64,000 nt of DNA from Streptomyces qinzhouensis (GTDB taxonomy: Bacteria; Actinomycetota; Actinomycetes; Streptomycetales; Streptomycetaceae), in contig NZ_CP042266.1 in the NCBI RefSeq assembly GCF_007856155.1, positions 7,564,001 through 7,628,000 on the forward strand, in the 5' to 3' direction. Positions within the stretch are counted from its first letter, which is position 1; each line of letters begins with the position of its first letter. Under the pieces are notes generated by a model. It did no database searches, was not told the origin of the DNA, and saw only the letters and a list, made by a program, of their open reading frames with translations. The position numbers and the translations under genes were made by a program. Positions 43,017 through 53,545 of the stretch are shown here, in pieces.

Positions 43017-43970
43017 ACGCGGTGGGGAGAGCAGCAGGAAAACGGAACACCCCCACGCGGTGGGGAGGACATGACGGCAACCACGAGCACCGTGAAGAGA
43101 ATCGGAACACCCCCACGCGGTGGGGAGGACGGCATGGTCGTCTCGGTGTACGGCATGTGGGGCGGAACACCCCCACGCGGTGGGGAGGACGCGATGCTGG
43201 AAGGCACGGCCTGGGCGCTCACCGGAACACCCCCACGCGGTGGGGAGGACAGCCGGGGCATAGCGCGGAACGCGGCCGTCAGCGGAACACCCCCACGCGG
43301 TGGGGAGGACCTACGAGCGAGCGGTGGAGGCGGCTGCCTAGCCGGAACACCCCCACGCGGTGGGGAGGACGTCTCTTCCGTCCCTGCGACCGGCAGCCCG
43401 CACGGAACACCCCCACGCGGTGGGGAGGACGGGTTCGGCCTGCCGGTCATCGCTGCCTACTACGGAACACCCCCACGCGGTGGGGAGGACACTCATCCGG
43501 ACAGCCGTTGCCAGCAAGGAAGCGGAACACCCCCACGCGGTGGGGAGGACCGCACGGAGGACATCGCACGCCTGCACAGCACCGGAACACCCCCACGCGG
43601 TGGGGAGGACCGGTCCTTCACCGGCGAGTCCGTCGGCGTCCACGGAACACCCCCACGCGGTGGGGAGGACGACGGCGCCGAGGAGGGCGAGGAGGAGGCC
43701 GGCGGAACACCCCCACGCGGTGGGGAGGACCCGGGCGAGGTGCACTCTCACGTACGGCTCGTCGGAACACCCCCACGCGGTGGGGAGGACGTCGTCTCCA
43801 CCGGATCCGACGGCGCCGTCCGCGGAACACCCCCACGCGGTGGGGAGGACTGACACGCCATGAAACACGTCGTCACAGGTTCCGGAACACCCCCACGCGG
43901 TGGGGAGGACAAACCGATCCTCACCATCATCATCTGCACCGGCGGAACACCCCCACGCGGTGGGGAGGAC
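43017..43970 (-). CRISPR. Type I-E CRISPR array: 16 repeats, 15 spacers, degenerate trailer repeat
   Basis: Sixteen identical 28-nt repeats start at 43043 and recur every 60 bases to 43970, separated by fifteen 32-nt spacers. On the plus strand a repeat starts CGGAACACCCCC and ends GGGGAGGAC. Read on the minus strand it has the stem CCCCAC/GTGGGG and ends GTGTTCCG, equivalent to the E. coli I-E crRNA 5' handle. The array is therefore transcribed leftwards, with the leader on its right beside cas3. A half repeat lacking the handle (43017-43032, 14 of 16 matches) marks the decayed trailer end, with a last spacer of only 10 nt. All full repeats are identical, indicating an active or recent array. 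Confidence 0.97.
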
Positions 43971-44150
43971 CCTTTCTGACCTGCACGTTAGGAGTGGCTT
44001 TGCCTTGCCTTTGCTGATGGCACTGTGCCTCCCGGATGTAGTTCCCTCACTGTAGCTGCGGATCCCGTGGGGTATCGCGGGGGCTGGTGGTTGTGATGGC
44101 GGGTGCTGTGAGGGGCGGACTGCTTCGGTCTGTGGTGTGGATGGGGCCCG
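43971..44150 (-). promoter_or_regulatory. CRISPR leader and cas3 upstream region
   Basis: The sequence to the right of the last full repeat is more AT-rich than its surroundings (GGCTTTGCCTTGCCTTTGC at 43998-44016) and sits at the 5' side of the array as judged from crRNA polarity. It should contain the leftward array promoter, the integration site for new spacers and the divergent promoter of cas3. Exact elements are not assigned. Confidence 0.6.
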
Positions 44151-44226
44151 TTGTCGGTGCGGTCTGCTTGACTCATTGGCCGGCGAGCGCGTGAGGGGTT
44201 GTGCGGGAATGGGTGTGCCCAGGGCT

Positions 44227-47052
44227 ATGGCGGATGAGTCGATTTGGGCGAAGTCGCGAGGTCTGGACCCGGGGCTGCCTCCATACCCGCTGGTCAGGCA
44301 CTTGGTTGACGCCGCTGCCATGGCGCTGCATTTGTGGGATGTCTACTTGTCGGACGGCCAGCGAAGGACTATTGAGCGGGGCTTGGGTCTGGCCGGTGAG
44401 CCGGAGCGGGCGCGGAGCCTGGTTGGCTTGTGCGCCGGGCTGCACGATATCGGGAAGGTATCGGGGTTTCAGTTCTGTTCCCGGCATGGGCGGGAACATC
44501 TTGGCACTTCGTTTGCATCGGGTCGGCGGGGGATGGAGGCTGACCGTCTTGGTCACGATGTGGCCGGAATGGAGGCAGCCGCAGAAGTTCTGGAGGTTCT
44601 CGGCTTCGACGTGGAGGGGTCCTGGGCGACGGAGCGCGTCGCCGAGATCATTGGTGGGCATCATGGACGGTTCCACCGCAATGAGGCATGGGGGGATTCA
44701 CCGTTCCTGGGCGGGCTCGCCTGGTCGCAGCAGCGTATCGCTCACGCGTCCGCTGTCCACGGAGTGCTGGGCGCACCGGTTCCGCCGTCTTCGTTCGACG
44801 CGCCGGCTGCCGTGCTGGTGACGGGAGTGGTGATCCTGGCGGACTGGCTGGTCAGTCAGACGCACTATCTGCGGGCGCGGCAGAGGCAGCTTGCATCTTC
44901 GCTGGAGGCGCACTTCGCCCGGTCCGTCGCGGACGCGCCCGGCCTGTTGGAGGGTGCGGGGCTGGTACCGGTCTGCCTGGAACGTGTGGGCTTCGGTGAG
45001 GCGTACGGGATCGAGGGCGGCCCGAATCCTCTGCAGCGGTCGATCATGGAGGAGCTGCCAGGCGCCGTGGCCGACGGCGGTGGACGCGGTGGCGTCGCGT
45101 TGATAACGGCTGCTCCGGGAGACGGGAAGACCGAGGGGGCGCTGACGGCCGAGAAGGTGCTGGCGGAGGCTTTCGGCACGCGTGGGCTGGTGTTTCTGCT
45201 GCCGACGACGGCGACAAGCGATCAGATGTACGGGCGGGTGTCGAAGGCTCTGGTGCGGCAGTCGGGCCAGGGGGCCGGACTGACCCTCGTCCATAGCATG
45301 GCCTGGCTGAACAGCGCCTATTCGGACGAGGAGTTGGATCCCGGTTCGGGCGTGGTGACGTGTGACGGTGACGAGTGTGCGGCCGGGAGTTCGCGAGCGG
45401 AGGCGGACATGCGCCCGCGCCGGTGGCTGCGCGGTCCGAAGCGTCCTTTGCTGGCGCAGTTTTCCGTGGGGACGGTCGACCAGGCGCTGATGGCTGTGCT
45501 GCCGGTACGGCACAACGCGCTGCGACTGCTGGGATTGTCGGGGAGGACGGTGGTCGTCGACGAGGCGCACGCGTACGAGCCGTACATGCAGGTGCTGCTG
45601 GGCCGGCTGCTGAACTGGCTCGGTGTGTACGGCGTGCCGGTGGTGCTGCTGTCGGCCACGCTGCCGGTCTCGGTCAGCGAGCGGCTGCTCAAGGAGTACC
45701 TGGACGGCTCGGGGGCGGACTGCGAGAGCCGGGAGGACCTGCCTTCTTCGGCACCCTATCCGGGCTGGTTGTACGTGGACGGTGCCACGGGGCGCCGCAC
45801 GCCGATGTCCGGCCGGCGGAGGCGGGAGCAGGCGGCCGAGCGGAACATGGAACTGGGTCTGCGGGTCGAACCGGTGGGTGAGCGAGGCAGGCTGGCGGTT
45901 GTCGAACGCCTTGTGGAGCCGGTGGCCCGGGGCGAGGGTGGCAGTGCGCTGGTGGTGTGCAACACCGTGGGCGACGCTCAGGAGACTTATCGCCGTCTGC
46001 GGGAGCGGTTCGACGACCGGTCCCACGAGGACGGGGGAATCGTGCATCTGCTGCACGCCCGGTTCCCCGGAAACGTCCGCGAGGCGCGGACCCGGGGGGT
46101 CACCGAAGGTCTCGGGCGCGGGGGGCCGCGACCCGAGCGCCGGATCGTAGTGGCCACGCAGGTCGTGGAGCAGTCCCTCGACCTGGACGCCGACCTGGTC
46201 GTGAGCGACCTCGCCCCGCTCGCCCTGCTCCTGCAGAGAGCCGGCCGGTGCTGGCGGCATGAGAACTGGTGGGCGCGCCATGGATATCCCGGGGACCGCG
46301 GCCGTCCCGGCTGGGCGCGGGCGCCGCGGTTGGTAGTGCTCGACCCCCTCGTGGGAACCGGTACGGTCCCGAAACGATGGGGCGAGGTGTACAGCGAGTA
46401 CCTTCTCCGCTTGACGTCTGCCCGGCTCCGGTCGCTCGACGGCGGGGTGGTGTCCATTCCGGATGATGTGCAGGAGTTGGTCGAATCGGTTCACGGGACC
46501 GGCGTGGAGTCCTTCGACTGGGATGCCCCGGGCGGCGAGTACCAGCAGTCCTGGGCCGCTCACGCCGGAACGGAGGCGGCGGAACGGGGCCAGGCCGCCT
46601 TGGTTGCCGTACCCAGGGCGCGGGAGGTTCGCGGGCTGCACGACCTGCACAAGCTGCCCGGCACAGAAGACGAGTGGGAGGCCGCCACACGTCTGGGCGC
46701 ACCATCACTGCGCCTGTTGTGTGCCTATGTCCAGCAGAACGGGAGGGCGACGCTCGATCTCGCTGGCCACGAGGTGCTCCCCGACCCGCCAAAGGAGCAG
46801 CAGGGGGACACCAGCATCCCGGTGGCCGCAGTGCGGGCGGTCATGCGACGCACCATTCCGGTGTCGGCGGACTGGTTCAGGAACGCGGAGGCGAACGGGC
46901 TGGTCAGCCCGCCGGGATCATGGGAGGGACACCCGATGCTGGGGGACGTCCGCGTCCTGTACCAGCCGGTGCGCAACGGTCAGGCCCAGACGGTCGACAT
47001 CGGTGGCATGATCCTGCGCCTGGACGCGGACCTCGGCCTGGTCCGCGCCTGA
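44227..47052 (+). CDS. cas3: CRISPR-associated helicase-nuclease Cas3 (type I-E)
   Basis: 941 residues from the ATG at 44227 (ATG 44209 is an alternative). The N-terminal HD nuclease domain has His25-x2-Asp28, His73-Asp74 (GLHDIGK) and IIGGHHGRFH. The SF2 helicase part has Walker A in TAAPGDGKTEGAL, DEAH in VVVDEAHAYEPYM, SATLP, and motif VI in LLLQRAGRCWRH. It is recruited by Cascade to degrade target DNA. The HD and helicase domains are fused, as in most I-E systems. It is separated by 627 bp from the rest of the cas operon, a gap that holds a mini-CRISPR and a small ORF. Confidence 0.96.
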   Translation: MADESIWAKSRGLDPGLPPYPLVRHLVDAAAMALHLWDVYLSDGQRRTIERGLGLAGEPERARSLVGLCAGLHDIGKVSGFQFCSRHGREHLGTSFASGRRGMEADRLGHDVAGMEAAAEVLEVLGFDVEGSWATERVAEIIGGHHGRFHRNEAWGDSPFLGGLAWSQQRIAHASAVHGVLGAPVPPSSFDAPAAVLVTGVVILADWLVSQTHYLRARQRQLASSLEAHFARSVADAPGLLEGAGLVPVCLERVGFGEAYGIEGGPNPLQRSIMEELPGAVADGGGRGGVALITAAPGDGKTEGALTAEKVLAEAFGTRGLVFLLPTTATSDQMYGRVSKALVRQSGQGAGLTLVHSMAWLNSAYSDEELDPGSGVVTCDGDECAAGSSRAEADMRPRRWLRGPKRPLLAQFSVGTVDQALMAVLPVRHNALRLLGLSGRTVVVDEAHAYEPYMQVLLGRLLNWLGVYGVPVVLLSATLPVSVSERLLKEYLDGSGADCESREDLPSSAPYPGWLYVDGATGRRTPMSGRRRREQAAERNMELGLRVEPVGERGRLAVVERLVEPVARGEGGSALVVCNTVGDAQETYRRLRERFDDRSHEDGGIVHLLHARFPGNVREARTRGVTEGLGRGGPRPERRIVVATQVVEQSLDLDADLVVSDLAPLALLLQRAGRCWRHENWWARHGYPGDRGRPGWARAPRLVVLDPLVGTGTVPKRWGEVYSEYLLRLTSARLRSLDGGVVSIPDDVQELVESVHGTGVESFDWDAPGGEYQQSWAAHAGTEAAERGQAALVAVPRAREVRGLHDLHKLPGTEDEWEAATRLGAPSLRLLCAYVQQNGRATLDLAGHEVLPDPPKEQQGDTSIPVAAVRAVMRRTIPVSADWFRNAEANGLVSPPGSWEGHPMLGDVRVLYQPVRNGQAQTVDIGGMILRLDADLGLVRA

Positions 47053-47074
47053 CATTACGGGCGGCGCGGTTCGG

Positions 47075-47164
47075 TCGGGCGCCCCCACTAAGGCGGGGAG
47101 TTGTCCGCAGACCTGAACTGCCCGGGCCCTTCCACCGGAACACCCCCACGTCTGCGGGGATCGC
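47075..47164 (-). CRISPR. Two degenerate CRISPR repeats with one 32-nt spacer (CreA/CreR-like mini-CRISPR)
   Basis: On the minus strand the order is psi-repeat 1 (47164-47136), a 32-nt spacer (47135-47104) and psi-repeat 2 (47103-47075). Psi-repeat 1 keeps the last 14 bases of the array repeat exactly (GTGGGGGTGTTCCG), including the whole crRNA 5' handle, but its 5' half has diverged. Psi-repeat 2 keeps the stem-like CCCCGCC...GTGGGGG but has lost the handle. Both are one base longer in the loop than the array repeat. The spacer begins GTGGAAGGGCC, which also occurs next to an AAG at 47481-47496. A functional crRNA-like RNA is an inference. Confidence 0.75.
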
Positions 47165-47198
47165 CAGCGGGATCGGCATGGGTGGCGGACTGGCAGCG

Positions 47199-47369
47199 TC
47201 AGTGTGTCAGACGGCGGAACGCTTCGGTCGCGGTGAGCAGCAGCATGCTGCAGGCGCCGACGGTGGCGGGATCGGGCCTGGAGGCGAGTACGACGACGAT
47301 CACCGCGATCACGATGACCGCCGGGGTAGTGGCGCTTGTCCACGGGCGGGTTAAGACGGGCGGCTGCAT
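47199..47369 (-). CDS. 56-residue hydrophobic protein upstream of the mini-CRISPR (possible CreT-like toxin)
   Basis: The ATG at 47369 has AGGAGGAG five bases upstream, one of the best Shine-Dalgarno sequences in the window. The protein has a short polar N-terminus (QPPVLTRPWTSATTP), a hydrophobic stretch PAVIVIAVIVVVLA, a charged turn ASRPDP, a second hydrophobic part ATVGACSMLLLTA, and a basic C-terminus EAFRRLTH. It is probably a small membrane protein with one or two helices. It is read on the same strand as the mini-CRISPR, which begins 35 bases past its stop. I do not recognise a family. A toxin role is proposed only from the arrangement. Confidence 0.6.
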   Translation of the reverse strand: MQPPVLTRPWTSATTPAVIVIAVIVVVLASRPDPATVGACSMLLLTATEAFRRLTH

Positions 47370-47480
47370 GGCTCCTCCTGAGTGTGCGGGCGGCGGTACC
47401 AACACCCGATGCTGGGCTACCGGCCCGGACCCCAAAGGCGACAGGAGTGGCTGCGCAACCCTCCAACTACCCCTGTAACC

Positions 47481-47496
47481 ACGGCCCTTCCACCTT
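47481..47496 (-). promoter_or_regulatory. PAM-flanked match to the mini-CRISPR spacer seed
   Basis: Read on the minus strand, AAG (47496-47494) is followed by GTGGAAGGGCC (47493-47483), identical to the first 11 bases of the mini-CRISPR spacer. AAG is the canonical I-E PAM and lies on the correct side. Homology ends after base 11, as expected for a site bound but not cleaved. It lies 114 bases upstream of the small ORF and 184 bases upstream of cas8e, between these two divergent genes. Confidence 0.65.
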
Positions 47497-47679
47497 CACT
47501 GCATCGTCTTGAACCTTCTGTGTGACGGTGCGGCTGCGGCTTTACGGACGTTTCCAGGTCGGTTGTCAGTGGTGGCTGCTTGAATGTCGGCACGGCTTCC
47601 CCCGGCGGTTTGGCGGGAGTTGTCGCATGCCCGGATGTGCGGTCCGGGCTGCGCCGGAACGAGGATGGGGCGGTGGTCG

Positions 47680-49266
47680 ATGCTGGGGTACGACCTGAGG
47701 GACGAACCATGGATTCCCGTACGGTTGCGGTCCGGTGAGCAGAGGAGGTTCGGGTTCCGGGAGCTGTTACGGCGGGCTCACGAGATCGCGGACCTGGAGC
47801 TTCCGGTGCCGCCCGCGGCATCGGGCCTCCTGCGGATTCTGGCGGTGATGACCGCCTCGATCGGTGGACAGAGGGGGATGCGGCTCGACGGTACCGGCAC
47901 GGCACGTGACGCCGCGTCCTGGTACGCACTGCGTCAGCGCGTACTGGACCAGGGGCTGTTCGATCCGGAGGCCGTCGACTCGTACTTCGACGACCCGAGC
48001 AGGTCAGGGCGATTCGATCTGTTCAGCGATGACTATCCGTTTCTTCAGGACCCCCGTCTCCTGAAGGAGTGTGTGGACTCCAAGGGGGCACCGAATCCGT
48101 CCGGGGTGAACAAGCTGGTCTTCGGACGTCCGACCGGCATCAACGGAGCGGTTCTGTTCGGGCACTTCACGGACAGCGAGCCGATCCCGGTTCCCGCCGC
48201 CGAGGCGGCCTGGCATCTGATCGCCCAGCTGTACTTCGGGCCGTCGGGTCAGTGCACACCACGGCGGATCACAGAGGAGCGGGCCGGCAGTGGGGACGCG
48301 GCACCCCTGCGGAAATCCATCTCCTACTTCCCCTGGGCACCCGAGCTGTTCACGACTCTGGTACTGGCTGTGCCCAGCCCTCAGACCGGTGCCGACCGTG
48401 AAGCTCAGGACTTCGCCGCGTGGGAAGGGGAACTCCTCCACCCCCTGAAACCGCTGCCGCCGCTGACCTCGCCGAGGCGTCTGCTGACAGGACGCTTCCG
48501 GCACGCGGTGCTGCTGATGCCGTCGGCCGACCGCCGGACGGTCACGGACGCCTACATCACCTGGTCGACGCACGACAAGCCGGCCCCCGTCTGGGACCCG
48601 TTCCAGATCCTCGACCGCCGTAAAAAGGGGGAGTTCCAGCCCCGGGAGGCGGACGGGGCGAGGGCACTGTGGCGGGACCTGGACTCTCTCCTGCTGAAGG
48701 ACAGCCGGAGGGACGTGCAGCGGCCGCCCGCGCTCGAGTACCTTCCCCGGAGCCTGCGGTCGCAGCTCCGTGTCCGCGCCTACGGCTTCGACCAGGACGG
48801 CCAGCAGAAGGACAGCGTCTGGTTCCAGGCGACGACTCCGCCGGTTTTGCAGTGGCAGGAGGAAGCCGACCGGGCCATGGCGTATCACGTGCGGAGCTGC
48901 CACACCGCAGCCGAAAAGGCGGGAGAGCGGCTGGAGTTCGCAGCCATGGTCGCCTGGCGCATCGCCTCCGACTCCGGCACCGACATCTCACCCAAGGCCA
49001 AGATCAAGATCGACCGGCGCAAGCCCGGGCCCTGGGCGGGGGCCGCCCGGTCCCTCTACTGGCCCGCCGCCGAACGGGAGTTCTGGAAGCTCGCCGCACC
49101 ACAGGAGGCTGCTGCCCCGGTCGAGCGGCCCTTCGTGCGAGCTGCCCTTGACTGCCTGGACGAAGCGATCGGCCCGGCGAACCGAGCCGACATTCGCGTG
49201 GCCCGCGCCCGCAATCGCGCCCGCGCCATCCTCCTCGGCCTCCTGCCCCGCCCCGCGGCGGACTGA
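47680..49266 (+). CDS. cas8e: Cascade large subunit Cas8e (Cse1/CasA)
   Basis: 528 residues from the ATG at 47680; an in-frame ATG at 47665 with a GGAACGAG upstream is an equally good start. The family opens with YDLRDEPWIPVR as here. The PAM-reading and Cas3-docking large subunit of Cascade is recognised by ASWYALRQRVLDQGLFDP, FDLFSDDYPFLQDP, the GVNKLVFGRPTGING loop and SGQCTPRRI. It contacts the crRNA 5' handle and the PAM. It is the first gene of a tight operon with cse2, cas7e, cas5e, cas6e, cas1 and cas2. The upstream region carries the mini-CRISPR seed match. Confidence 0.95.
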   Translation: MLGYDLRDEPWIPVRLRSGEQRRFGFRELLRRAHEIADLELPVPPAASGLLRILAVMTASIGGQRGMRLDGTGTARDAASWYALRQRVLDQGLFDPEAVDSYFDDPSRSGRFDLFSDDYPFLQDPRLLKECVDSKGAPNPSGVNKLVFGRPTGINGAVLFGHFTDSEPIPVPAAEAAWHLIAQLYFGPSGQCTPRRITEERAGSGDAAPLRKSISYFPWAPELFTTLVLAVPSPQTGADREAQDFAAWEGELLHPLKPLPPLTSPRRLLTGRFRHAVLLMPSADRRTVTDAYITWSTHDKPAPVWDPFQILDRRKKGEFQPREADGARALWRDLDSLLLKDSRRDVQRPPALEYLPRSLRSQLRVRAYGFDQDGQQKDSVWFQATTPPVLQWQEEADRAMAYHVRSCHTAAEKAGERLEFAAMVAWRIASDSGTDISPKAKIKIDRRKPGPWAGAARSLYWPAAEREFWKLAAPQEAAAPVERPFVRAALDCLDEAIGPANRADIRVARARNRARAILLGLLPRPAAD

Positions 49267-49352: not shown

Positions 49353-50003
49353 ATGACCAGTACTCAACCCGCGGTCACCGTGCCGAAGAAGAGGGAGGAA
49401 CGCACTCCCGAACGCTTCGTCGCCTACATCGTCGGACTCTGCGAAGCCCCCAGGACACGGGCGGAACTGCGCCGAGGTCTCGGGCTGCCCGTCGAGCGCT
49501 GCAACTACCTGCACCGCTACCTGGTCCCGTGGACCCATGACCGCGACGACCCGGCGAAGAACATGCATCCCGCCACCAAGCGGGCCCACTACGCCGTCGC
49601 CGCACTGATCGCGGCCCGCCCCCGCGTGGCCCGTGCCCCCCAGCCCCTCAACGGCGCGGCCGGTGATTCCGGGGAGTCCGCGCGCCGGGTGAGAGCGGAT
49701 CTGGGCGTCTCACTCGGACAGGCCGTATCCGCGAAGGTGATCAAGCCGGCGACAGCAGAGAGCACCCTGCACCTGATGTCCCGGCAGAGCGCGGACTCCG
49801 TCCACTCGACACTGCCCTCCCTGACCCGGCAACTGCTCAGCGGCGGAATCGCAGTGGACTGGGCCGTCCTTCTGGACGACCTCGCCTGGTGGGACCTCAG
49901 GCGCGACCGGATCGGTTCCCGCTGGCTGGAGAGCTACTTCCGTACTGCCTATCCCGAGAACGACACCGAGACCCCCAGCGCGACCGAGGAGAACGAGCGA
50001 TGA
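49353..50003 (+). CDS. cse2: Cascade small subunit Cse2 (Cas11e/CasB)
   Basis: 216 residues. An all-helical small subunit present in two copies in E. coli Cascade, which binds the displaced strand of the R-loop. Recognition is by the order in the operon, the size and the family-like C-terminal half (LHLMSRQSADSVHSTLPSLTRQLLSGG ... DWAVLLDDLAWWD). The N-terminal 20 residues are polar and charged. The ATG at 49353 follows an 86-bp gap after cas8e. The stop overlaps the cas7e start (ATGA). Confidence 0.92.
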   Translation: MTSTQPAVTVPKKREERTPERFVAYIVGLCEAPRTRAELRRGLGLPVERCNYLHRYLVPWTHDRDDPAKNMHPATKRAHYAVAALIAARPRVARAPQPLNGAAGDSGESARRVRADLGVSLGQAVSAKVIKPATAESTLHLMSRQSADSVHSTLPSLTRQLLSGGIAVDWAVLLDDLAWWDLRRDRIGSRWLESYFRTAYPENDTETPSATEENER

Positions 50004-51133
50004 CCCTCTACCTGGACCTGAGCGTCCTGCAGTCCGTTCCGGCGGCAAACCTCAACAGGGACGACCTCGGCTCCCCCAAACAGGTCCGCTACGGCAGCAC
50101 CCCCCGCATCCGCGTGTCCAGCCAGTCCTGGAAGAGGGCCATCCGCCACGGCGTCGAGGAAGACCTCGGAGAGAAAGCCGCCCGCACCCGCCTGGTACCC
50201 GCCCAGGTCAGCAAGGCCCTCGCAGGCAGCAGCCACAACTGGCCTGGCGAACTTGCCGAGTTCGCCGGACAGCAGGTCGCCGCGAGCGCAGGAAAGAAGG
50301 GCATCGGCACCGAGAAGGAAGGACACACCTCCGCCCTGCTGTTCGTGCCCGAGGCCGCCATCACCGAACTGGTAACCGTCTGCACCGAACACCGCGACGC
50401 CCTGGAACAGAACCTCGGAAAGAAAAGCCCCGGCAAAGTACTCCCCCCCGAGCGCATCGAGGCCATCCTCAAGCGCCGCACAGCTTCCATCAGCCTGCTC
50501 GGCCGGATGCTCGCCGAACTCCCCGGCGCCAACGTCGACGGCGCCGCCCAAGTCGCCCACGCCTTCACCACCCACACCGCCGAGCCCCAGCGGGACTACT
50601 TCACCGCCGTCGACGACTGGCACGGCCAGGCCGACACCGGAAGCGCACACCTCGACACCGCCGAGTTCAGCGCGGGCGTCTTCTACCGCTACGCCACGGT
50701 CAACGTCGCCGACCTGGTGACCAACCTGGACGGCGACGCCGACGCCGCACGCACGGTGCTGACTTCGTTCGCCGAGCACTTCCTGTACTCGCTGCCCCAG
50801 GCCAAACGCACCAGCTCCGCCCCCCACACCCTGCCCGACCTCGCCTACCTGGCCGTCCGCAAACACCGGCCGATCTCGCTCGCCGCAGCCTTCGAAACCC
50901 CGGTCACCGCCCACAACGGAGGCTTCTCCCAGCCCTCCCGCACAGCGCTCGCCAAGTACACCGAGAACATCAACCGGCTCACCGGCAACCGCGGCCGAGA
51001 CTTCCACGGGCACGCCGCCATCAACCCCGACGAACAGCTCGCCGGACTGGGCGAAAGCCACACCTCCTACGACACGCTCATCAGCACGGCCGTGGACGCA
51101 GCCTTCCCGGCAACCTCCGGTGACGCAGGATGA
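50000..51133 (+). CDS. cas7e: Cascade backbone subunit Cas7e (Cse4/CasC)
   Basis: 377 residues from the ATG at 50000, overlapping the cse2 stop. The RRM-fold backbone that wraps crRNA is recognised by YLDLSVLQSVPAANLNRDDLG, then PKQVRYGSTPRIRVSSQSWKRAIR, and TGSAHLDTAEFSAGVFYRYATVNV. Six copies are expected per Cascade. The stop overlaps cas5e by four bases. Codon use is typical of the locus, with no frameshift. Confidence 0.96.
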   Translation: MTLYLDLSVLQSVPAANLNRDDLGSPKQVRYGSTPRIRVSSQSWKRAIRHGVEEDLGEKAARTRLVPAQVSKALAGSSHNWPGELAEFAGQQVAASAGKKGIGTEKEGHTSALLFVPEAAITELVTVCTEHRDALEQNLGKKSPGKVLPPERIEAILKRRTASISLLGRMLAELPGANVDGAAQVAHAFTTHTAEPQRDYFTAVDDWHGQADTGSAHLDTAEFSAGVFYRYATVNVADLVTNLDGDADAARTVLTSFAEHFLYSLPQAKRTSSAPHTLPDLAYLAVRKHRPISLAAAFETPVTAHNGGFSQPSRTALAKYTENINRLTGNRGRDFHGHAAINPDEQLAGLGESHTSYDTLISTAVDAAFPATSGDAG

Positions 51134-51900
51134 GCGGGCTGCTGCTACGGCTCGCCGGCCCCCTCCAGTCCTGGGGCGAACGCTCCGCCTTCACCACCAT
51201 CAGGGACACCGCTTCCTTCCCTACCCGCTCCGGCCTCATCGGCATGCTTGCCGCGGCGGAAGGCATCAGCCGCAACCAGGGAGGGCTGGAGCGCTACGAC
51301 GGCCTCCGGTTCACCATCCGCACCGACCGCCCCGGCCACCGCCTCGTCGACTTTCACACCGTCGGTGGCGGCCAGCCGAAAGCCCGCACCGCCGCAACCA
51401 GCGGCGGCAGCAACAAAGGCGCGGCCGTCATCACCCGGCGCCACTACCTGAGCGACGCCGTCTTCGTCGTCGCCGTCACCACGCCCGACGAAAAGACCGC
51501 AACCCGCCTCGCCGAAGCCCTCGACCGCCCCCACTGGGCCCCCTACCTGGGACGCCGCTCCTGTGTACCCGACGAACCACTCGTCCTGCGCTGCCACGCC
51601 CCGGACCCCGAAGAAGAACTGCTCACCCGCGTCCCACTCGCCCGCACCACACCACCCCACCACGGCGAAGACACCGTCGGCGTGGAGTTCCTCTACGAAT
51701 CGCCACCCGAAGACCCCGCGCAGGCGGCCGACACCATCGACGTCACCGACATCCCCCTCAGCTTCGCCCAGCACGCACGCGCCCACGGCGTACGCCGACT
51801 CCACCGGGTCACCAGGCAGCTGCCCCTCGGCCTGACCGGGCCCCAGAGCGAACTGCAGGACCGCCTGATTGAATACGCCCGGACCGAGGAATCCGCATGA
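51130..51900 (+). CDS. cas5e: Cascade subunit Cas5e (CasD)
   Basis: 256 residues from the ATG at 51130 (overlap with cas7e). The opening LLLRLAGPLQSWGERSAFTTIRDT and TRSGLIGMLAAAEGISR are the Cas5 signature; the protein caps the backbone and grips the crRNA 5' handle. The middle has YLSDAVFVVAVTT and APYLGRRSCVPDEPLVL, typical of the I-E subtype. It is complete and coupled to cas6e. Confidence 0.95.
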   Translation: MSGLLLRLAGPLQSWGERSAFTTIRDTASFPTRSGLIGMLAAAEGISRNQGGLERYDGLRFTIRTDRPGHRLVDFHTVGGGQPKARTAATSGGSNKGAAVITRRHYLSDAVFVVAVTTPDEKTATRLAEALDRPHWAPYLGRRSCVPDEPLVLRCHAPDPEEELLTRVPLARTTPPHHGEDTVGVEFLYESPPEDPAQAADTIDVTDIPLSFAQHARAHGVRRLHRVTRQLPLGLTGPQSELQDRLIEYARTEESA

Positions 51901-52547
51901 ACGACCACCCCGTACTCGCGCGCATTAGCCTCAACCCGCACAGCCGCGAGGTCCAGCGCGACCTCCGCGACGCCACCCAGATGCACCGCACCGTCATGCG
52001 CATGGTTCCCGACGGCCTCGGCGCCTCACCCCGCCACCGCGCCGGACTCCTGTACCGGGTGGACGAAACCGACACCGCCAGCACTCTCCTTGTCCAGGCC
52101 CACCGCCTCGACCCCGCCGGACTCCCCAACGGATACGGCCACGCACAGATCAAAAGCCTCGCACCCATGTTCACCGCACTCCGGGCCGGACTCCCGGTCC
52201 GATACCGCATCGTCGTCAACCCCTCAAAACGCGAACGCCCCCCACACGCCGACGTAAACATCCGAGGCCGGATCGTTCCCCTCTCCGGAGCCGACGCCGA
52301 CCAGTGGTGGCACCGCCGGGCAAACACCGCCGGCCTCGACCTCCACATCATCACCCCCACCAACGTCCATCCCGTGCGCCCCCGAGGCGCCGAAGCCCCT
52401 CCCATGCGGCACAGCCTCCTCCGCTACGACGGCACCGCCGCCGTCATCGACCCCGCCGCCCTCACTGAAGCCCTCCTGAACGGCATCGGCCGGGCCAAAC
52501 CCTACGGAGCCGGCCTCCTCAGCCTCGCCCCGGCCACCGCCTCATGA
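51897..52547 (+). CDS. cas6e: crRNA endonuclease Cas6e (Cse3/CasE)
   Basis: 216 residues from the ATG at 51897 (overlap with cas5e). Two ferredoxin-like folds are expected, with the probable catalytic His30 in QMHRTVM and the C-terminal glycine-rich loop GIGRAKPYGAGLLSLAP that holds the repeat hairpin. It cuts pre-crRNA at the 3' base of the CCCCAC/GTGGGG stem and leaves the 8-nt handle GUGUUCCG. Psi-repeat 1 of the mini-CRISPR retains that cleavage region, so the same enzyme should process it. Confidence 0.95.
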   Translation: MNDHPVLARISLNPHSREVQRDLRDATQMHRTVMRMVPDGLGASPRHRAGLLYRVDETDTASTLLVQAHRLDPAGLPNGYGHAQIKSLAPMFTALRAGLPVRYRIVVNPSKRERPPHADVNIRGRIVPLSGADADQWWHRRANTAGLDLHIITPTNVHPVRPRGAEAPPMRHSLLRYDGTAAVIDPAALTEALLNGIGRAKPYGAGLLSLAPATAS

Positions 52548-53545
52548 ACCCGCCCGGCCGCAACAGCGACGCCCGCCGACGCCTCGCAGCCCCGACCCTC
52601 GCCATGCTCCCGCGCGTCGCGGACTCCCTCTCCTTCCTCTACCTCGACATGGTCCGTGTCCTCCAGGACGACACCGGAGTATGCGCCCAGATCCAGGCCA
52701 GCGACGACCGCACCGACACCGTCTACATCCCCACCGCCGCACTCTCATGCCTACTGCTCGGCCCCGGCGTCTCCATCACCACACCGGCACTCACCACCCT
52801 CGCCCGCCACGGCACCAGCGTGGTCTGCGTCGGAGCAGGCGGCGTACGCGCCTACGCCGGCATCCTCCCCGACTCCCTCACCACCCACTGGCTCGAGCAA
52901 CAAGTCACCACCTGGACCGACCAGACCCGACGCCTCGAAGTCGCCGTCCGCATGTACCGGATGCGCTTCCACGACGCCGAACTCCCCGACACCGTCACCC
53001 TGGAACAACTGCGCGGCATGGAAGGCCAGCGCATGAAGACCCTCTACAAAATCCTCGCCCAGCAGCACGGCATCGGCCGATTCCGACGCAACTACCACCC
53101 CGACCAATGGCACGCCCAGGACCCTGTCAACCTCGCCCTGTCCTCGGCCAACACCTGCCTCTACGGAATCGTCCATGCAGCCCTGCTTGCGCTCGGCCTC
53201 TCACCGGCACTCGGATTCGTCCACGCAGGCAAACAACATGCCTTCGTCTACGACATCGCCGACCTCAACAAAGCCGAAACCACACTTCCCCTCGCCTTCG
53301 CACTCCACCAGTCCGGCAACCCTGAACAGGACGCCCGCCGCCGGTTCCGCGAGAACCTACGGCTGCTGAAACTACTCCCGCGCATCGTCCACGACGTACA
53401 GTCCCTGCTCACGCCCGGCAGCCCGGTCACAGCCGATCAGCCAACCCCGGCCTCGGAACGACGGGACACCGAAATGGTGCACCTGTGGGACCCCAAGCGA
53501 GGAGTCCTCCCCGCAGGAGTTAACTACGGCTCGGGAGAACAGTGA
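52544..53545 (+). CDS. cas1: CRISPR integrase Cas1 (type I-E)
   Basis: 333 residues from the ATG at 52544 (overlap with cas6e). The metal-binding residues Glu160 (GMEGQRMK), His227 (GFVHAGKQH) and Asp240 (YDIAD) are spaced 67 and 13 apart, as in E. coli Cas1. A 20-residue N-terminal extension precedes the conserved start. The C-terminus continues about 40 residues past the core with a low-complexity linker. It works with Cas2 to insert new spacers at the leader end on the far side of cas3. Confidence 0.96.
   Translation: MNPPGRNSDARRRLAAPTLAMLPRVADSLSFLYLDMVRVLQDDTGVCAQIQASDDRTDTVYIPTAALSCLLLGPGVSITTPALTTLARHGTSVVCVGAGGVRAYAGILPDSLTTHWLEQQVTTWTDQTRRLEVAVRMYRMRFHDAELPDTVTLEQLRGMEGQRMKTLYKILAQQHGIGRFRRNYHPDQWHAQDPVNLALSSANTCLYGIVHAALLALGLSPALGFVHAGKQHAFVYDIADLNKAETTLPLAFALHQSGNPEQDARRRFRENLRLLKLLPRIVHDVQSLLTPGSPVTADQPTPASERRDTEMVHLWDPKRGVLPAGVNYGSGEQ

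Follow-up and report, generated by a model that had tools for sequence, protein, structure and literature searches.

The cas3-cas8e interval

The window, a stretch of 64,000 nt taken from a complete 8.15 Mb chromosome (G000:C1:7564001-7628000), contains a type I-E CRISPR-Cas locus with an array, cas3, cas8e, cse2, cas7e, cas5e, cas6e and cas1e; each of these cas genes matched its PADLOC model. The genus is taken to be Streptomyces, as G221 (L003), a genome of the same genus, has its cas8e upstream region in common with Streptomyces populi (L036). The array lies at about 43042-43971 on the minus strand and has 16 repeats, and cas3 is found at 44137..47052 on the plus strand. The first gene of the Cascade operon, cas8e, occupies 47680..49266 (plus strand) after re-assignment of its start: position 47680 is more likely than 47584, because the alignment of most homologues begins only around residue 33. 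It is followed by cse2 (cas11e), cas7e, cas5e, cas6e and cas1e at 49353..53545 on the same strand, whose products would be the machinery that processes and uses a guide RNA.

The first-pass annotation, made from the letters alone, had proposed a five-element module between cas3 and cas8e, and every element was found where it had been placed. Read along the minus strand, the order is an AAG-flanked target, a small ORF, a degenerate repeat, a spacer and a second degenerate repeat. The target site (47462..47496) comprises a PAM AAG at 47496-47494 and a protospacer at 47493-47462, whose matched seed part is its first 11 nt (47493-47483); it lies about 185 nt upstream of cas8e, counting from start 47680. 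The small ORF (47199..47369; 56 codons and a stop) encodes a hydrophobic, membrane-type protein, a candidate effector or toxin. Its ribosome-binding site, AGGAGGAG, had been put five bases before the ATG and in fact ends 2 nt before it. Degenerate repeat 1 (47136..47163) retains the hairpin and the 8-nt handle GTGTTCCG, the putative 5' handle of a guide RNA, and this handle is, as had been claimed, identical to that of the real array. Next come the 32-nt spacer (47104..47135), with the seed GTGGAAGGGCC, and degenerate repeat 2 (47076..47103), in which the handle has decayed. Identity to the array repeat is down to 18/28 for the first and 15/28 for the second degenerate repeat; folding indicated that both still form the hairpin of the repeat.

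Spacer and site match at positions 1-11 directly after the AAG, as had been noted, although the match does not simply stop there, since positions 14 and 15 agree too; apart from these two, the match in the window is poor from position 12 on. At the local composition (66% GC), 5.7e-6 same-strand matches of AAG plus 11 nt are expected per kb, close to the 1 in 100,000 estimated beforehand. In 5000 dinucleotide shuffles of the adjoining 1 kb the longest AAG-flanked match was 8 nt, seen in one shuffle. Across the 8.15 Mb genome there are two copies of AAGGTGGANGGGCC, one of them being the target site.

Spacer-site pairs in other cas8e upstream regions

Cas8e was present in 63 of the 392 genus genomes searched, and further Cas8e loci were taken from genome contigs (44) and from plasmids (69 records, 10 of these plasmids being used). 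Usable upstream DNA was available for 103 of 105 loci (it was too short in two), and removal of 10 near-duplicates left 93 non-redundant regions; a later addition of 15 (19 minus 4 near-duplicates) brought the total to 108. The scan looked for a hairpin with an octamer resembling the handle and, after it, a spacer for which another part of the region held an AAG-flanked partner. Pairs were scored over 15 positions (1-17 minus 6 and 12), with a threshold of at least 12; since an AAG PAM and a near-canonical handle are demanded, some pairs are missed.

Pairs scoring at least 12/15 were found in 39 of the 93 non-redundant regions (the doubtful L062 included) versus 9 of 930 shuffled regions. Two of the 15 added regions were also positive, giving 41/108 overall, with the shuffle control referring to the first 93 only; the scan returned no pair at this threshold in the other 67. 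Five loci stand outside the 41. L008 needs a one-base shift to fit, L044 and L055 score 10/15 and 11, and L046 and L102 reach 12 and 14 but failed the scan filters. The search for decayed repeats with a co-varying PAM-seed site that the first-pass annotation had called for was thus positive, and the outcome that it had named as fatal, homologues that keep the repeats and lose PAM and seed match, is not the general picture: in the 39 regions both are kept while the letters differ. Exceptions with a guide and no good site are L032 and the decayed guides of L104 and L105. In the latter two, both on plasmids, decayed guides lie about 190-280 nt upstream of cas8e with no small ORF (by eye), and their spacers have remained similar to the one in L099, a close relative, which possibly gives a view of guide decay and ORF loss. 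In L062 and L121 the guide-site pairs (13/15 each) lie on opposite strands, as is the case for no other pair of at least 12; the L062 hairpin is poor and this pair may be due to chance.

The 39 pairs represent 30 distinct spacer groups. Each spacer scored 12-15 against its own site, and cross scores between groups had a mean of 4.7 and a maximum of 11. Matches among the 30 groups were 28, 28, 30, 30 and 30 at positions 1-5, 9 at position 6, 30, 29, 22, 26 and 30 at positions 7-11, 7 at position 12, 25, 28, 25, 24 and 19 at positions 13-17, and 5 at position 18, with 8-14 beyond. Given a match rate of 0.28 for mismatched spacer-site pairing, positions 6, 12 and 18 are near or below chance. When sites were picked on positions 1-5 and 7-11 alone, the choice agreed in 29/30 groups, and positions 13-17 matched in 19-27 of the 29 and position 12 in only 7; when they were picked on 7-11 and 13-17, it agreed in 27/30, with 25-27 of the 27 matching at positions 1-5 and only 8 at position 6. 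The dips at 6 and 12 were therefore not created by the way in which the sites were chosen. Cascade flips out every sixth base (PMC5904413, in part), and the constraint at positions 1-17 with dips at 6, 12 and 18 is, judging from this natural variation, the pairing pattern of I-E Cascade. In E. coli an AAG PAM and about five seed nucleotides are enough for Cascade binding, and robust interference and priming need at least 18-25 bp (same source, in part); the pairing described here fades past position 17, that is, below this range.

Across the guide genes the hairpin and a GTG-type handle are kept and the remainder of the repeat has decayed. Some handle letters differ from those of the array in several relatives. 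The stem of degenerate repeat 1 carries paired changes in L052, L044, L009, L065 and L056 (for instance, CCTCGC/GCGAGG in L052 as compared with CCCCGC/GCGGGG in the array of the same locus), so that it is the hairpin itself that is kept.

Two layouts were observed. The window's clade comprises loci whose Cas8e shares at least 58% identity with the nearest query; here, moving away from cas8e, one meets the site, then the small ORF where there is one, then the guide. Where Cas8e identity is 35-49%, the guide comes before the site. At 8 of 20 sites of this distant layout the cas8e strand has a TANNNT box no more than 10 nt from the PAM (random expectation 0.029; binomial p 5e-8, the loci being not fully independent). 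The site there overlaps the presumable cas8e promoter in those loci, and cas8e repression would be the simple reading for this layout.

The promoter signals in the window's clade are of another kind. TANNNT is found near the PAM in only 1 of 23 loci; in the window no such -10-like box was seen at the target site, the site overlaps no obvious cas8e core promoter, and a search of 47000-47750 for sigma-70-like promoters found none. Eight of 24 clade loci, the window not among them, have a TTGNNN-N17/18-TANAAC box that starts 32-56 nt after the protospacer start and lies beyond the 17 paired bases. By comparison with these, TTGCGC at 47453..47458 (minus strand) is a possible, weak -35 box of the window's small ORF/guide unit; no clear -10 follows it. 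On the cas8e side, the element TTGTCAGTGG (47563..47572, plus strand, about 70 nt to the cas8e side of the target site in the window) recurs with at most two mismatches in 30 of 34 clade loci, guide-less loci included, at a distance of 80-130 nt from cas8e on its upstream side, and is mostly followed by CTGCTTGAATG or an CTGTTTCACTG-like stretch. It is probably part of the cas8e control region. We take its letters to resemble the core of the RecA-NDp/PafBC DNA-damage promoter; a full promoter of that type was set aside, as the expected -10 is missing. Given the position of the small-ORF box, the distance to TTGTCAGTGG and the rarity of TANNNT, simple promoter occlusion is no more than a possibility in this clade. 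Two sub-threshold Rfam matches were taken as chance.

The small ORF family

An intact small ORF was found in 14 non-redundant loci and encodes 54-64 amino acids; after the hydrophobic stretch the consensus is RPDPAT...C..LL.GA.EA.RRL. The near-duplicate L103 (of L097), which was dropped from the counts, also retains it at full length. All 28 pairs among eight closer members gave dN/dS values of 0.11-0.57, and the small ORF is, on this comparison, a conserved protein family under purifying selection. The window protein had no match in Pfam up to E 0.1 or in PADLOC. For the 13 members searched NCBIfam returned nothing, and Pfam returned four DUFs, each matching one member (best E 0.021). A literature search, whose coverage did not extend to the original CreR and CrePA papers, found no description of the ORF.

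Strong matches (E below 1e-19) were obtained in 7 of the 392 genus genomes and in none of the 329 genomes that lack a Cas8e hit (the two 392-genome draws being taken as the same set). Six lie at cas8e loci with a guide; the seventh (L110, in genome G142) is on a 4.1 kb contig that also carries a guide and site next to it; past the conserved element, unrelated DNA stands in place of the cas8e side, which we read as an insertion. A distant relative (L115; G168, 1501-1587; E 7.5e-4) occurs in a genome without a Cas8e hit. A tRNA read by eye next to it was withdrawn, as ARAGORN found none in that stretch. A tblastn search of the plasmids with the window ORF alone gave no match and is too weak a test, because plasmid L099 (NZ_CP108815.1) carries an annotated divergent member. 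The cse2 annotation of L099 is split into two parts that flank a winged-helix gene and a transposase.

Within the window's clade, loci were classified by reading (24 with guide and site, L008 and L044 being counted as site-bearing, and 10 without an intact pair, among them the decayed guides L032, L104 and L105; L074, whose upstream region is unrelated, was left out). The ORF is intact in 14 of the 24, decayed or partly deleted in 4 and absent from 6. None of the 10 gave a tblastn match to the small ORF, a result that is partly mechanical, since in most of them the whole interval is deleted, ORF included. On the Cas8e tree 12 changes of the label 'intact' are needed, 7 of them forced by well-supported branches, so the ORF came or went many times; we infer that it was ancestral and has been lost repeatedly.

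TTA is the bldA codon in Streptomyces. A single TTA is present in 7 of the 14 small ORFs, in 6 of these within codons 6-13 (codon 6 in the window). Per codon the frequency is 7/807 versus 12/7000 for cas8e of the same loci (Fisher p 0.002), and 7 of these 14 cas8e genes also contain a TTA.

Cascade as a candidate regulator of the interval

We consider it probable (about 0.8) that a guide of the CreR/CreA type, encoded at 47163-47076, steers I-E Cascade to 47496-47462, where it would act as a repressor of the divergent intergenic region. The guide gene would be a mini-CRISPR whose repeats have decayed except for hairpin and handle. Its transcript is predicted to be processed by Cas6e, giving a 5' end GUGUUCCG at 47143, and to be loaded into Cascade, which would recognise the AAG-flanked site through seed pairing at positions 1-5 and 7-11. 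Such pairing should be long enough for binding and too short to license Cas3. The unit most likely to be repressed is that of the small ORF and the guide, as an autoregulated operon of the CreTA kind; the cas8e operon may be repressed as well. As the repressor would be Cascade itself, transcription should rise when there is little Cascade, when other crRNAs occupy it or when an anti-CRISPR inhibits it, and in the window strain shortage or inhibition of Cascade would then switch on the small membrane-type protein.

The guide belongs to a known class, for CreR and CreTA are published and CreR has been described for types I-B, I-E and V-A (PMC13131331, in part; see also parts of PMC12737573 and PMC12948488). 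Two degenerate repeats around a single spacer, a retained 5' handle, PAM-flanked partial complementarity within the cas locus with a seed at 1-5 and 7-11, and complementarity that is maintained by co-variation between loci are all found here. Like CreR, the module is a mini-CRISPR with decayed repeats inside a cas locus and has partial complementarity upstream of cas genes; unlike CreR, it has a conserved gene for a small membrane-type protein between site and guide, and in the window's clade an overlap of the site with the cas8e core promoter is not evident. The resemblance to CreTA of Haloarcula hispanica and Halobacterium hubeiense (type I-B) extends to two divergent degenerate repeats, the guide, and the order site, ORF, guide on one strand, with the ORF as candidate toxin and the site as putative promoter. 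There CreA represses the promoter of its own toxin-guide operon, a role that is only proposed for the window, and requires seed positions 1-5 and 7-11 while 6 and 12 are free (PMC8501985, in part). The CreTA- or CreR-like assignment made in the first-pass annotation gains support from the co-varying site and from the fit of the pairing pattern to this seed rule. However, the window system is bacterial, of type I-E and uses the PAM AAG, and CreT is an RNA with a rare-codon ORF of 4-6 codons that sequesters a tRNA (same source, in part), whereas here a family of 54-64 aa proteins is found; the window ORF has one TTA (codon 6) and an AGG (codon 31), none of them consecutive. In CrePA a protein toxin with a KilA-N domain, CreP, is repressed by a crRNA-like RNA with the Cas effector and is freed by anti-CRISPRs (PMC12737573, in part). 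The window would share control of a protein effector, here a candidate only, by guide and Cas effector, but its protein is small and hydrophobic, with no Pfam, NCBIfam or PADLOC match and hence no KilA-N domain among its hits.

Which promoter is served, and what the small protein does, may be read in more than one way. Regulation might concern only the cas8e operon (and the guide), with the small ORF a passenger in the unit. Published CreRs do autorepress systems of types I-B, I-E and V-A through partial promoter complementarity (PMC13131331, in part); in the distant layout guide and site occur, L055 being the only locus there with a short hydrophobic ORF in addition, and at 8 of its 20 loci the site abuts the -10-like cas8e box; and in the window's clade all ten guide-site loci without an intact ORF still have sites of at least 12/15. 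Pure autorepression of cas nevertheless has to accommodate an ORF kept as a protein in 14 loci, in CreTA order and with the dN/dS range given above, as well as a window site some 70 nt away from the conserved element on the cas8e side, and we hold it as a tentative reading, well short of an even chance. An addiction system like CreTA or CrePA, in which Cascade and guide silence a toxic membrane-type protein and the cell is harmed or arrested once Cascade is lost or inhibited, is quite possible, if still somewhat short of even odds. The CreTA order on one strand, an intact ORF in 14/24 guide-site clade loci as against 0/10 without an intact pair, and strong ORF matches in 7/392 genus genomes and 0/329 lacking a Cas8e hit speak for it; the protein is also short and hydrophobic, as are many type I toxins. 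On the other hand, the 0/10 owes something to deletions of the interval that remove the ORF as well, one strong match (G142) is on a contig that lacks the adjoining cas8e, and the ORF is dispensable, since 10 of the 24 loci retaining both guide and site have lost it or carry a decayed copy. An extended form of this proposal can be entertained, as possible rather than probable: a type I-E module of novel construction, serving addiction as well as anti-anti-CRISPR functions, in which guided Cascade would restrain a small, conserved membrane-active protein, phage inhibition or loss of Cascade would lead to membrane damage or dormancy, and the module, ancestral in the Streptomyces clade, would repeatedly have been reduced to a bare CreR.

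Two readings do without regulation. The repeats are degenerate, the L032 guide outlasts a deleted site and ORF, and the L104 and L105 guides are decayed, as might be expected if an ordinary array had decayed to a remnant that matches its own locus by accident. The 6-nt mismatch pattern, the 9/930 of the shuffles and the fact that 30 spacer groups co-vary with their sites make this very unlikely for the window, and as a general account an array relic or chance self match is refuted by shuffles and co-variation. CRISPR spacers normally derive from mobile elements, and the spacer might serve in immunity against an element that shares the sequence; yet the guides match an adjacent intergenic site and pairing ends near position 17 across loci, and we regard this as the least probable reading, close to negligible.

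If the regulatory reading is right, I-E Cascade has been kept as a gene regulator in actinobacteria, as natural variation in 30 spacer groups indicates, and an immune complex doubles as a switch that controls its own genes and, as the window strain suggests, an uncharacterised small membrane-type protein. The variant part is this protein, which is conserved and occupies the toxin position of a type I-E locus. Should it prove toxic, it would be a protein effector of CRISPR-dependent addiction outside KilA-N and tRNA-sequestering RNAs. The words CreR, CreTA and toxin are absent from the main text of a 2025 review of actinomycete CRISPR-Cas (PMC12231136), and named Streptomyces species provide loci in which the proposal can be tested.

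A possible independent case is seen in Actinomadura sp. DC4 (L055), where a different hydrophobic ORF of 36 aa lies between the guide and the weaker site (11/15), on the cas8e strand and so opposite to the guide; a marginal match to the small ORF was also obtained at this locus, at 5952-5815 (35%, E 8e-4).
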